NCBI RefSeq assembly: GCF_030388325.1
Contig: NZ_CP103794.1
Location: 992,001 to 1,056,000 of the forward strand
Length of the DNA stretch: 64,000 nucleotides
Origin: Flavobacterium johnsoniae
GTDB lineage: Bacteria; Bacteroidota; Bacteroidia; Flavobacteriales; Flavobacteriaceae
Direction: 5' to 3'
The notes beneath the pieces are model-generated. The model searched no databases, was not told the DNA's origin, and saw only the letters and a list, made by a program, of their open reading frames with translations. Below, piece after piece: positions 48,044 through 63,361 of the stretch; position 1 is the stretch's first letter; each line of letters starts with the position of its first letter. A program made the position numbers and the translations under genes.

Positions 48044-48048
48044 AATGT

Positions 48049-48810
48049 TTATCGTGAAACAATTTTGGCATTTTGAGATAAAATTTGTTTTCCCGATTGA
48101 TAAATGATTAACGCCGCAGGCGGCGAATTTTTTTCGCCCAAAACGGTGAAATGACATTCATATCTAAAATCACCTTTCTTAAACTCATAATGATGATTTC
48201 CTCCAGTTCCATCAGCGACGAAAACGCCATTTTCAATTATTAAATCAGGTTTGTCAGTCATTTTATTTTTGATTGACCACGAAGCATAACGAAATTTATT
48301 ATTTCCTAAATCATCAATTCTGATTCTAAATTTTGAAGTTTCTAAAATCGCAACTGGCTCTTTAAATTTTGAAATTGAAGCGTTTACATTTTTCTTCTGA
48401 GCAGCAATCAATTCATTTTTAATTTTCAATTCTGCTTCAGACTGGTAATTTATGCTAATAATTTTTCCATTTGTATCAATCCACAAATCGCCTTGGTTTA
48501 GCATAATTCCGCGCCAACCCATTTCTGACCAATCTTTTTCTGGATTCGATTTTGTTATTTTCTCAATTAAAACAGCATCGAAAATTTGATTGTATCTTTT
48601 CATAAAATCGGCTTTGTTCTTTACTGAAGGAATTGGAGAATCTCTTTTTAAAGGAAATTGCACACGATTTGAAACCGCTGTTTTGTTGCCGCTTTTTACT
48701 TCCAAAATAAACTTCGAAATAATTTTTTGGTATTCTGGTTTCAGATCTTGAGCATTTGTAAAAGACGTGTAAAAAATCAAAAAGGTTAGAAAAAATTTCA
48801 ATGTTTTCAT
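48049..48810 (-). CDS. secreted protein of unknown function
   Basis: 253 residues with a signal peptide (LKFFLTFLIFYTSFTNAQ). The first half is helical and includes NRVQFPLKRDSPIPSVKNKADFMKRYNQIFD, reminiscent of a snoaL/NTF2-like secreted domain. The second half is beta-rich (FRIRIDDLGNNKFRYASWSI ... YEFKKGDFRYECHFTVLG). I do not recognise a named family. Probably periplasmic. It is followed by a strong terminator and preceded by the helicase gene, 78 bp away, with a degenerate parS-like word in between. Confidence 0.65.
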   Translation of the reverse strand: MKTLKFFLTFLIFYTSFTNAQDLKPEYQKIISKFILEVKSGNKTAVSNRVQFPLKRDSPIPSVKNKADFMKRYNQIFDAVLIEKITKSNPEKDWSEMGWRGIMLNQGDLWIDTNGKIISINYQSEAELKIKNELIAAQKKNVNASISKFKEPVAILETSKFRIRIDDLGNNKFRYASWSIKNKMTDKPDLIIENGVFVADGTGGNHHYEFKKGDFRYECHFTVLGEKNSPPAALIIYQSGKQILSQNAKIVSR

Positions 48811-48888
48811 ATCAAAAAAAGATTTAATGCGTTAGAAATTAGATTTTTGAAAAACGAAAACAATGTTTCACGTAGGACGTTGAAAATC

Positions 48889-53064: not shown

Positions 53065-53166
53065 GTTTCACGTGGAACAATTCTAATTTTAGATTAAATA
53101 TTTTAGATTTTAAATTTTTATCTATCATATAAAAATATATCAATCAAAATTAGTTTCACGTGGAAC
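53065..53166. promoter_or_regulatory. two parS-like palindromes downstream of mnmG
   Basis: Two copies of GTTTCACGTGGAAC at 53065-53078 and 53153-53166, in the 294-bp gap between mnmG and the methyltransferase gene. They belong to the same family as the eight copies at 55169-55643. They probably bind ParB; see the cluster upstream of mnmG. Confidence 0.65.
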
Positions 53167-53234: not shown

Positions 53235-55106
53235 TTATCTTCCCATATAAATCAAAAGCACAGAAATATCACTTGGTGATACTCCGCTAATTCTTGAAGC
53301 TTGTGAAATTGTTACAGGACGAATCTTGCTTAATTTCTGTTTGGCTTCAATAGACATTGATTTGATTTTGTTATAATCAAAATTGTCTGGAATTTTTACT
53401 TCTTCTAAACGATTTAACTTATCTGCATTATTTCTTTCTTTTTCGATATAACCAGAATATTTAACCTGAATTACGGCTTGTTCTACAATTTCTTCATCCA
53501 GATCATTTTCTTTGATATATGCTTCAACCTTTTCAAATTTCAACATATCTTCTAATTCAATTTGCGGACGAGAGAAAATCTTAAACATTTTATCTCCTTG
53601 CGAAATCGGTGCAGATTCTTTTGCTTCCAAAATCGGATTTGTCTCTGCAATGCTTACACTTGTTTCTTTGAAGAATTGAACCATCTTTTCAGACTCATTT
53701 AATTTCTTTTCCATTCTTCGTAAACGATCTTCAGAAGCTAAACCAATTTCATATGACATTGGAGTCAATCTGAAATCGGCATTATCTTGACGCAACAAAG
53801 TTCTATATTCTGCTCTGGATGTAAACATACGATATGGTTCTTCCGTTCCTTTCGTAATCAAGTCATCAATTAGAACTCCAATGTAAGCTTCATCACGTTT
53901 TAAAATCAATGGATCTTTTTCATGTACTTTCAAGTGTGCATTTATTCCAGCCATCAAACCTTGAGAAGCTGCTTCTTCATATCCAGTTGTTCCGTTAATC
54001 TGCCCAGCAAAATATAATCCTTCAACTAATTTCGTTTCCAAAGTATGTTTCAATTGTGTTGGTGGAAAGAAATCATATTCGATTGCGTAACCTGGTCTAA
54101 AGAATTTTACATTTTCAAAACCTGCTACAGAACGAAGCGCTTTAAATTGAATATCTTCTGGAAGTGAAGTTGAAAAACCGTTTACATAAACTTCGCAAGT
54201 ATTCCATCCTTCTGGCTCAACAAATAATTGGTGACGTTCTTTATCTGCAAAACGATTAATTTTATCTTCAATTGATGGACAGTATCTCGGTCCTAAACTT
54301 TTGATTCTACCGTTGAACATTGGAGAACGATCAAAACCTTCTCTCAAAATATCATGAACATCCAATGAAGTATAAGTCATATGACAAGAACGCTGATGAA
54401 CCAATGGAGAAGTTACATCTGAATAAGAAAACTTATCTGGCTTTGCATCTCCTTTTTCTTCATTCATTTTAGAATAATCCAAAGAACGTCCATCTACTCG
54501 AGGTGGTGTTCCTGTTTTCATTCTTCCAGCTTCAAAACCTACTTTGATCAAATCTTCGGTGATTCCGGTTGCAGCACTTTCTCCTGCTCTACCTCCTCCG
54601 AATTGTTTTTCTCCGATATGAATTAAACCATTCAAAAAAGTACCATTCGTCAAAACGACAGATTTGGAACGAATCTCCACACCAAGTGAAGTTCTAATTC
54701 CTTTTATCTTTCCGTCTTCAATAATCAACCCTTTTACCATCTCTTGATAAAAATCAAGATTTGGAGTAGCCTCCAACATCATTCTCCATTCTTCTGCAAA
54801 ACGCATTCTATCACTTTGAACTCTCGGCGACCACATTGCAGGTCCTTTTGATTTATTCAACATCTTGAACTGGATTGCAGTTTTATCAGAAACAATTCCT
54901 GAATATCCACCAAGAGCATCAATTTCTCGAACGATTTGTCCTTTTGCAATTCCACCCATCGCAGGATTACAAGACATCTGTGCTATGTTTTGCAAACTCA
55001 TTGTAACCAATAAAGTTTTTGATCCTAAATTTGCGGCCGCCGCCGCGGCTTCAGAACCAGCATGGCCTGCACCAACCACAATAACATCGTATTCTTCTAA
55101 AAACAT
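53235..55106 (-). CDS. mnmG: tRNA uridine-5-carboxymethylaminomethyl modification enzyme MnmG (GidA)
   Basis: 623 residues, the usual length. N-terminal FAD-binding motif VVGAGHAGSEAAAAAANLG, MSCNPAMGGIAKGQIVREIDALGG, CRP-like GTPPRVDGRSLDYS, the signature GYEEAASQGLMAGINA, LIDDLITKGTEEPYRMFTSRAEYR, and the C-terminal region ending ISGVSPSDISVLLIYMGR. With MnmE it modifies the wobble uridine of several tRNAs using FAD. mnmG sits near the replication origin in many bacteria. Here it is flanked on both sides by parS-like sites. Confidence 0.98.
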   Translation of the reverse strand: MFLEEYDVIVVGAGHAGSEAAAAAANLGSKTLLVTMSLQNIAQMSCNPAMGGIAKGQIVREIDALGGYSGIVSDKTAIQFKMLNKSKGPAMWSPRVQSDRMRFAEEWRMMLEATPNLDFYQEMVKGLIIEDGKIKGIRTSLGVEIRSKSVVLTNGTFLNGLIHIGEKQFGGGRAGESAATGITEDLIKVGFEAGRMKTGTPPRVDGRSLDYSKMNEEKGDAKPDKFSYSDVTSPLVHQRSCHMTYTSLDVHDILREGFDRSPMFNGRIKSLGPRYCPSIEDKINRFADKERHQLFVEPEGWNTCEVYVNGFSTSLPEDIQFKALRSVAGFENVKFFRPGYAIEYDFFPPTQLKHTLETKLVEGLYFAGQINGTTGYEEAASQGLMAGINAHLKVHEKDPLILKRDEAYIGVLIDDLITKGTEEPYRMFTSRAEYRTLLRQDNADFRLTPMSYEIGLASEDRLRRMEKKLNESEKMVQFFKETSVSIAETNPILEAKESAPISQGDKMFKIFSRPQIELEDMLKFEKVEAYIKENDLDEEIVEQAVIQVKYSGYIEKERNNADKLNRLEEVKIPDNFDYNKIKSMSIEAKQKLSKIRPVTISQASRISGVSPSDISVLLIYMGR

Positions 55107-55624
55107 TTTGTTTTATTATTCTCTAAAAACCGCTAACGCGGTTTCTAGAATTACTTTTATATTTTTTTGTTCCACGTGGAACTTTTTAATTTTGTTTCAG
55201 GTTTTAAGTTTCAAGTTCAAACTAAAAACTGGAAACTGATATCTTCAAATTCAGAAAACAAATAAAAACGTTTCACGTGGAACATCTTTTTATTTTCTTC
55301 AAACAGAACTTTAAACAGAACTTTGAAATAAAAATTCCCAAAGAGAACTTTCAAATCAGAATTCCAAAACAGAATCTTTTTAATAAATGTTTCACGTGAA
55401 ACATTTCTAAACTTCCATTCTAAACTCCAAAGAATATTTTAAAATCATGTTCCACGTGAAACACCCCATTCTATTTCTTTTAAATTCAAACCTAAAAAAA
55501 CGTTCCACGTGGAACGCTGTAAAATTCTTTTAATTTCTTCGAATATGTTTCACGTGGAACGTTATAAAAATTTTAAAAAACCACAACGTTTCACGTGGAA
55601 CATATATATTAAAAAGATGTTTAA
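55107..55624. other. 518-bp intergenic region upstream of mnmG holding parS-like sites
   Basis: Very AT-rich gap between the minus-strand genes ybeY and mnmG. Seven complete GTTYCACGTGRAAC palindromes lie in it, and an eighth crosses into ybeY. Other contents are a TTTCAGGTTTTAAGTTTCAA repeat word near 55196-55215 and a short tandem AAACAGAACTTT near 55300-55323. No ORF is convincing. No DnaA-box cluster is evident. Confidence 0.8.
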
Positions 55625-55643
55625 TTACTGTTCCACGTGAAAC
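55169..55643. promoter_or_regulatory. cluster of eight parS-like ParB-binding palindromes
   Basis: Fourteen-mers starting at 55169, 55270, 55389, 55449, 55502, 55547, 55588 and 55630, all fitting GTTYCACGTGRAAC. The 55388-55403 copy extends to TGTTTCACGTGAAACA, identical to the B. subtilis parS consensus TGTTNCACGTGAAACA. Spacings shrink from 101/119 bp to 41-42 bp toward ybeY. ParB binds parS and spreads to form the partition complex moved by ParA. That these sites bind ParB is inferred from sequence only. Confidence 0.7.
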
Positions 55644-56044
55644 ATCTTCATTTTCTCTTCTTCCTTCTGTCTCATTAATTGAGCTTCTTCGTCTGACTTA
55701 TCTTTGTATCCACAATAATGTAGTATACCATGAGATAGCACTCTTTTAAGTTCTTCAGCAAATGAAACGTTGAAATCTTTTGCATTATCTGCAACACGTT
55801 CTACAGAAACAAAAATATCTCCATTTAACTCGTTACCAACTGTATAATCGAAACTGATAATATCAGTCAACGTATCATGATCTAAATATTCAATATTGAT
55901 TTTATGAAGATACTCATCATCACAGAATATATAGTTGATCTCTCCTTCATTCTTGTTTTCAGAAATAATTACAGCACTAAGCCAGTCACTAAAAGCCTGC
56001 TCGTCTCCTAAAGTAAAATCTGTTTCGTAATTAAAATTTATCAT
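55625..56044 (-). CDS. ybeY: endoribonuclease YbeY (rRNA maturation)
   Basis: 139 residues. YbeY-type region INIEYLDHDTLTDIISFDY, GDIFVSVERVADNA and the metal-binding HGILHYCGYKDKSDEEAQLM. In the classical family the third ligand is His (GYDH); here the place is taken by KDK, with Asp as the plausible ligand, as I have seen in other Bacteroidetes. It is a zinc-dependent ribonuclease for 16S rRNA 3'-end maturation. The start overlaps the stop of the DUF4175 gene (ATGA). The C-terminus KMKMFHVEQ is encoded by a parS-like palindrome (55630-55643). Confidence 0.92.
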   Translation of the reverse strand: MINFNYETDFTLGDEQAFSDWLSAVIISENKNEGEINYIFCDDEYLHKINIEYLDHDTLTDIISFDYTVGNELNGDIFVSVERVADNAKDFNVSFAEELKRVLSHGILHYCGYKDKSDEEAQLMRQKEEEKMKMFHVEQ

Positions 56045-63034: not shown

Positions 63035-63361
63035 TTATTTCTGAAGTTTAGCGTTCTGTGCTTTCAATTCAGCCAATTTAGTTTCTAAAAAAGTAATTAC
63101 TTCTTCTGTTTTATGGCTAACATTTGAAAGTAAATCATTCAGAGTTCCATCAAGGTTTTGAGTAGCACTTGTAAATTTTTCACGTAAAACTTCTGAGCTG
63201 GCATCAAAAGAATCTTTGATGTTATGTTTCGCATCATCGATACCTTCTTTTATTTTTGCTCTCGTTTTTGATCCTTTATCTGGAGCAAATAAAATTCCGA
63301 TCGCTGCTCCTGCCGCTGCAGCCGCTAAAATTGCCGCTGCTGTATTTAAATTTTTAGACAT
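63035..63361 (-). CDS. YtxH domain-containing protein
   Basis: 108 residues. N-terminal hydrophobic Ala/Gly-rich segment (AAAILAAAAAGAAIGILFAPDKGSKTRAKIKEG), the YtxH signature, then an amphipathic helical tail (HNIKDSFDASSEVLREKFTSATQNL; VITFLETKLAELKAQNAKLQ). YtxH-type proteins are induced in general stress in Bacillus and form small membrane-associated helices. First gene of a minus-strand trio with the holin-like and DUF6327 genes. Confidence 0.88.
   Translation of the reverse strand: MSKNLNTAAAILAAAAAGAAIGILFAPDKGSKTRAKIKEGIDDAKHNIKDSFDASSEVLREKFTSATQNLDGTLNDLLSNVSHKTEEVITFLETKLAELKAQNAKLQK

Follow-up and report, generated by a model that had tools for sequence, protein, structure and literature searches.

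A cluster of parS sites around mnmG in Flavobacterium johnsoniae as a predicted chromosomal centromere

The window, i.e. the whole stretch of 64,000 nucleotides that was analysed, carries mnmG (gidA) and, upstream of it on the same strand, ybeY, and the interval between the two genes is occupied by a series of 14-bp palindromes (Table 1). An exact word search with GTTYCACGTGRAAC gives eight matches within 55169-55643, all of them at the positions listed in a preliminary description of this DNA, which had also correctly observed that the spacing tightens along the array (101, 119, 60, 53, 45, 41 and 42 bp); it had overlooked two further exact sites downstream of mnmG. The same description placed the array in AT-rich non-coding DNA, which is right for the mnmG-ybeY interval and wrong for site 8, this being part of the coding end of ybeY. 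Its identification of the 16-mer at 55388-55403 as a parS consensus is borne out, in that TGTTTCACGTGAAACA equals the consensus given in PMC10197239.

Table 1. Features of the mnmG locus and of the candidate replication origin. Positions are those of the window, except for the last line, where they refer to the genome contig (C1).
Feature	Position	Strand	Remarks
parS-like site, GTTTCACGTGGAAC	53065..53078		downstream of mnmG; exact match
parS-like site, GTTTCACGTGGAAC	53153..53166		downstream of mnmG; exact match
mnmG (gidA), tRNA uridine modification enzyme	53235..55106	-	TIGR00136 849.2 bits, cut-off 524.85; parS on either side
mnmG-ybeY interval with parS sites 1-7	55107..55624		518 bp, 27.6% GC
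parS 1, GTTCCACGTGGAAC	55169..55182		exact match; 62 bp upstream of mnmG
parS 2, GTTTCACGTGGAAC	55270..55283		exact match
short tandem repeats, units of 12, 13 and 27 bp	55297..55387		TRF; wide gap between parS 2 and parS 3
parS 3, GTTTCACGTGAAAC	55389..55402		exact match; perfect 16-mer at 55388-55403
parS 4, GTTCCACGTGAAAC	55449..55462		exact match
parS 5, GTTCCACGTGGAAC	55502..55515		exact match
parS 6, GTTTCACGTGGAAC	55547..55560		exact match
parS 7, GTTTCACGTGGAAC	55588..55601		exact match
parS 8, GTTCCACGTGAAAC	55630..55643		within ybeY 3' end; minus-strand reading FHVEQ, last YbeY residues
ybeY, rRNA maturation RNase	55625..56044	-	TIGR00043 108.9 bits, cut-off 45; C-terminal codons coincide with parS 8
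candidate replication origin upstream of rpiB	C1:1064297-1065105		809 bp, 21.3% GC; ~8.3 kb beyond the window end

The confinement of the word to this locus is complete. The genome, a single contig of 5,324,536 bp, contains exactly ten exact copies of GTTYCACGTGRAAC, all inside one 2.6 kb locus, whereas the same whole-genome search returns no exact match for a reversed control word, and chance yields none over 100 dinucleotide-shuffled versions of the window. The palindrome, (T)GTTYCACGTGRAAC(A), is non-random in the genome, as a chromosomal parS centromere would be, and the similar density throughout the genome that the preliminary description had named as an argument against its own proposal is not observed, the exact word occurring nowhere else. 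With as many as three mismatches allowed, the 16-mer is found at 73 places genome-wide, the ten sites included, against 81 for the control, so the degenerate copies elsewhere are background and there is no genomic excess of weak sites. Within the window, degenerate parS-like words other than the ten sites number 8, compared with 3.7 expected (s.d. 1.95); parS-like words with two to three mismatches lie at 48047-48060, 48865-48878 and 63177-63190, at most ~8 kb from the array. The degenerate words near the array may be either decayed sites or chance matches. A reading of the palindromes as terminators of transcription or as a mobile repeat element, which palindromic sequence in an AT-rich spacer might suggest, is scarcely credible: they are not a dispersed repeat, since there are no copies elsewhere in the genome, and both word and place are kept across the genus while the spacers diverge.

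The array is normal for the genus, with a similar cluster at the same gene in the sampled relatives. All 150 sampled Flavobacterium genomes have the word, in 2-12 copies per genome. The locus was compared in 101 genomes (100 of 147, together with the window's own, out of 150 mnmG places minus those of G017, at a contig edge, and G097, with stops inside the gene), where 465 of the 472 genome copies lie at mnmG; all of a genome's copies are at mnmG in 99 of these loci, the two exceptions (G067 and G036) being cut by contig ends, and no exact copy is present inside mnmG in any of the 101. Genomes with two copies have one site upstream of mnmG and one past it, and at higher copy numbers the extra sites are located mainly between ybeY and mnmG.

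Among 296 genomes sampled from the phylum, the exact word is present in 273 and absent in 23; outside the genus it mostly has, as judged by eye, one to three copies. Of 30 phylum loci, 24 encode MnmG within a 3-kb stretch surrounding the first site, also by eye. Five genomes of one family of the same class (L119-L123) have no MnmG in that stretch, and their sites may be elsewhere. A search of genome contigs yielded at least 117 stretches in which three sites follow one another at intervals of 34-64 bp, the matches listed (80 record titles) including Streptomyces, Planctomycetaceae, Clostridia, Cupriavidus and Mucilaginibacter, with MnmG in 49 of the 117 among the matches listed. Dense arrays, often adjoining mnmG, are thus widespread and occur in other phyla too, and the claim that the dense array is unusual does not survive. 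Two very regular arrays, with 15 sites 35-37 bp apart (L218) and 13 sites 41-43 bp apart (L224), lie near the end of their stretch. In a literature survey of partial coverage, judged by titles, no description of this Flavobacterium/mnmG parS array was found.

When sites 1-7 (98 columns) are compared with eight close relatives, they are 0.86-1.00 identical and the spacers 0.53-0.90, with gapped columns left out (0-15 in the sites, 5-78 in the spacers), and the sites are better kept than the spacers against all eight. A parS site overlaps the ybeY end in 95 of the 100 genomes in which that end was located, and in 96 of 100 the YbeY protein has FHV close to its end, in a tail of the form FHV(E/K). 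The H and V of FHV are encoded by CAC GTG in 96 of 96 cases, compared with 6.1% (~6) expected from mnmG codon use, and the codon that follows, GAA in 81 cases and AAA in 15, reflects the R of the parS word. There is no circularity in this test, since mnmG was the basis for choosing the loci and the search for FHV was made in the peptide, although the 96 genomes are related and so do not represent 96 independent events. Here a centromere site would dictate the C-terminus of a conserved RNase, a clear case of DNA-level selection prevailing over codon choice.

A partner protein for the sites is encoded in the same genome, as the preliminary description would have required. PF02195 has a single match, at C1:196063-196341, which is part of a 300-aa ORF (ParB), and directly upstream of parB is a 255-aa ORF, identified as ParA-like by reading, with the motif KGGVGKTT; this parAB pair is 0.85 Mb from the parS sites. 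The ParB exceeds the TIGR00180 cut-off (167.9 versus 58.45 bits). With the Noc model, TIGR04285, it scores higher (240.8 bits), yet remains under that model's own cut-off of 315. A comparison with the PDB gave 14 matches, the best ten being ParB, Spo0J or Noc chains (E 1.3e-51 to 7.3e-42), and the ParB motifs GERR and ENxQR are both present. R173 and G201 are invariant in ParB and are replaced by Q and R in Noc, and position 172 (Caulobacter numbering) is a DNA contact with a conserved S (PMC7383237). At the equivalent positions, mapped by motif because the Caulobacter chain is missing from the five printed alignments, the protein has R (GKKRS) and G (SMGHG), with K rather than S at 172. By this mapping it fits a cognate chromosomal ParB with ParB-type DNA-contact residues, deviating at position 172.

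These observations bear on whether the sites might instead be bound by another regulator of mnmG or ybeY, acting at a CACGTG-type operator or as a ParB-like repressor. Site 1 precedes mnmG by just 62 bp, and the closest site does so by 7-18 bp in certain other genomes, as an operator might. Nevertheless, the word is the parS consensus of PMC10197239, the genome has the single PF02195 match, sites are also found downstream of mnmG and within ybeY, and as many as nine sites ahead of a single housekeeping gene fit poorly with an operator; regulation by such a protein is therefore considered very unlikely. ParB itself might secondarily affect the expression of mnmG.

A canonical Smc, the partner expected of a parS locus that loads Smc, was not found by searches of the genome with TIGR02168 and PF02463, although parAB is present. 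No match is over the TIGR02168 cut-off (best 24.8 versus 567.35 bits), whereas the control passes it in 10 of 14 genomes; PF02463 has 20 matches, three of them over cut-off, in frames of 568, 421 and 367 aa, and one weak match in a 1049-aa frame. Smc loading at these sites is doubtful. A lack of any known condensin was likewise observed for the two Bacteroidetes examined in PMC10197239.

The position of the array relative to the replication origin was assessed by GC skew, using sixty 20-kb samples of the genome and three pieces of the window. The cumulative skew in the sampled genome has its minimum near 1.05 Mb and its maximum near 3.8-3.9 Mb; a contiguous 140 kb places the local minimum at C1:1,064,867, at a distance of 17-18 kb from the eight-site array and ~20 kb from the two downstream sites. 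By GC skew alone, the sites are hence origin-proximal, as parS sites are expected to be. The skew minimum falls within the 809-bp region upstream of rpiB. The classical DnaA box is TTATCCACA, and TTATCAACA is this box with one base changed. The variant TTATCAACA is found upstream of rpiB in 24 of 30 loci of the genus, which come from close relatives so that the counts are not independent, at 1.22 per kb versus 0.026 per kb in the genome samples. This genome's own region has one copy of TTATCAACA, and TTATCAACA/GTTATCAA words are kept upstream of rpiB in relatives. On the basis of the variant word, the skew and this conservation, the rpiB-upstream region is proposed as oriC.

In E. coli, oriC lies beside gidA, and the array could itself be the replication origin, given the nearby skew minimum, the AT-rich sequence and the adjoining gidA. 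Such an assignment is highly improbable in view of the local skew minimum another 17-18 kb on and of the distribution of TTATCAACA, which is in none of the 101 mnmG-upstream regions (up to 800 bp), compared with the 24 of 30 regions upstream of rpiB. The classical box TTATCCACA is found neither in those 101 regions nor in the 30 candidate origin loci. The genes mnmG and rpiB are not more than 30 kb apart in 114 of the 122 genomes that have both on one contig (the other 28 of 150 have them on separate contigs or were not entered). The dnaA gene is elsewhere, 1.04 Mb from the array and 1.06 Mb from the candidate origin, and in all 26 single-contig genomes among the 150 sampled its distance from mnmG is about 18.6-33.7% of the chromosome, three of the 26 chromosome lengths being rounded values. 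The earlier argument from mnmG to a nearby origin is upheld here by GC skew, though dnaA is far off. That dnaA and the origin are uncoupled is in line with PMC10197239, according to which dnaA does not always mark the origin. PMC2768785, on Blattabacterium, which is without dnaA, added nothing of use.

The spacing of the sites has a sharp lower limit in the genus. The shortest of 248 upstream spacings is 33 bp and the median 48.5 bp; in arrays with three or more sites none of 210 spacings is below 33 bp, compared with 39-68 (mean 52.1) in 1000 random placements with fixed ends, a simulation that leaves shared ancestry out of account. The limit is not universal, since 5 of 426 spacings beyond the genus are below 33 bp, in a set that includes some genus loci and was obtained with a search pattern favouring 34-64 bp. 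One reading is that it reflects a limit on simultaneous ParB loading, the ParB footprint being taken as ~20 bp in PMC10387095; another is that palindromes very near each other are unstable. Helical phasing was considered and rejected (10.5 bp: R 0.05, p 0.69, n 155), and an 8 bp period (R 0.25, p 5e-5) was given no meaning, four periods having been tried and shared ancestry only partly removed.

The tightening of the spacing had been taken as unusual, yet a tightening toward ybeY recurs in 23 of the 25 arrays that have at least five sites upstream, from related genomes. No support was found for the gradient as a code. Wide gaps are richer in tandem repeats than the narrow ones: in the same 25 arrays, tandem repeats of unit length 6 bp or longer make up 38% of the bases in wide gaps (>70 bp) and 16% of those in narrow gaps. 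Several wide gaps in the genus contain 7-, 13- or 14-bp repeats. Such repeats can be only part of the cause, since two wide-gap arrays (G036 and G054) are without them. In three mnmG-ybeY intervals the repeat unit takes in a parS site together with its spacer (38 bp in G038, 51 bp in G092 and 47 bp in G049), so some sites have probably been multiplied by tandem duplication of site plus spacer.

The number of sites rises with genome size, with r 0.86 over 150 genomes and r 0.55 with phylogenetic contrasts (mnmG tree, 101 genomes), genome sizes other than that of this genome being rounded to 0.1 Mb. Between large and small genomes there are only three independent pairs, a number too small for testing, in which the number of sites changes in the same direction in 1.8 on average and never in the opposite one. 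No paper joining parS site number with genome size was found in the literature covered, which was partial.

Taken together, the evidence argues, with an estimated probability of about 95%, that the ten palindromes constitute the chromosomal parS sites, i.e. the centromere, of the organism's own ParABS system, and the earlier proposal of a Flavobacterium centromere is strengthened by the uniqueness of the exact word to the locus, by the ParB with its adjoining ParA-like gene and by the nearby origin indicated by GC skew. Points against this assignment are the K at position 172, the separation of parAB from the sites, the higher score of the Noc model and the phylum genomes without the exact word. 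Proteins of the ParB family load at parS, spread by CTP-dependent sliding and drive ParA-based movement of origins (PMC7333895, PMC10387095, PMC4368675). By analogy, ParB dimers, made from the gene at 196 kb of the chromosome, would bind the parS sites, take up CTP, close into a clamp and slide onto the flanking DNA, and ParA would move the ParB-covered origin regions apart after the start of replication ~17-18 kb away; several loading sites near each other might raise the rate of ParB loading at one spot. It may be that the whole Flavobacterium centromere is one compact, plasmid-like array, the sites of which, at least ~33 bp apart, act as separate units for loading of ParB clamps, that the number of sites grew with chromosome size, and that, without a canonical Smc to be loaded at scattered sites, its sole task is ParB loading for the ParA pull, of which longer chromosomes need more; this fuller proposal is tentative and rather unlikely to hold in its entirety. 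Why the number of parS sites varies and what drives their clustering are questions raised in PMC7333895. They become testable inside one genus, since one locus carries between 2 and 12 sites, a number that increases with genome size, and their spacing has a sharp lower limit; the main interest of the array is as a natural series for the question of parS number and spacing. The parS array is also a landmark for the Flavobacterium origin region, where dnaA misleads.

The F plasmid sopC locus is a plasmid partition centromere with tandem 43-bp repeats. The array resembles it in being a compact single cluster of many sites ~40-50 bp apart; by contrast with sopC, its spacers are uneven and mostly unrelated in sequence, and its word is that of chromosomal parS. 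A study of gut bacterial origins, covering 12 strains including two Bacteroidetes, is similar in that origins were set by a parS cluster together with GC skew, and not by dnaA, but it concerns other genera, and no mnmG-ybeY array is described in the passages available (PMC10197239). The locus also resembles the chromosomal ParABS systems of Caulobacter, Pseudomonas aeruginosa, Streptomyces and Listeria, with which it shares the same parS palindrome, in several copies near the origin, and a single chromosomal ParA-ParB pair. In Caulobacter, two sites are separated by 42 bp, similar to the spacings here (PMC10387095), any single one of four oriC-proximal parS sites is enough in P. aeruginosa (PMC4368675), and up to 20-23 parS sites are present in Streptomyces coelicolor and Listeria innocua (PMC7333895). 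The differences are that the ten sites are all packed into 2.6 kb, while chromosomal sites are often separated and a single cluster is commoner on plasmids (PMC10387095), and that parAB and dnaA are 0.85 and 1.04 Mb away, respectively. The locus is almost certainly a canonical chromosomal parS cluster, typical of its genus, and its predicted role as a centromere is well supported by computation.
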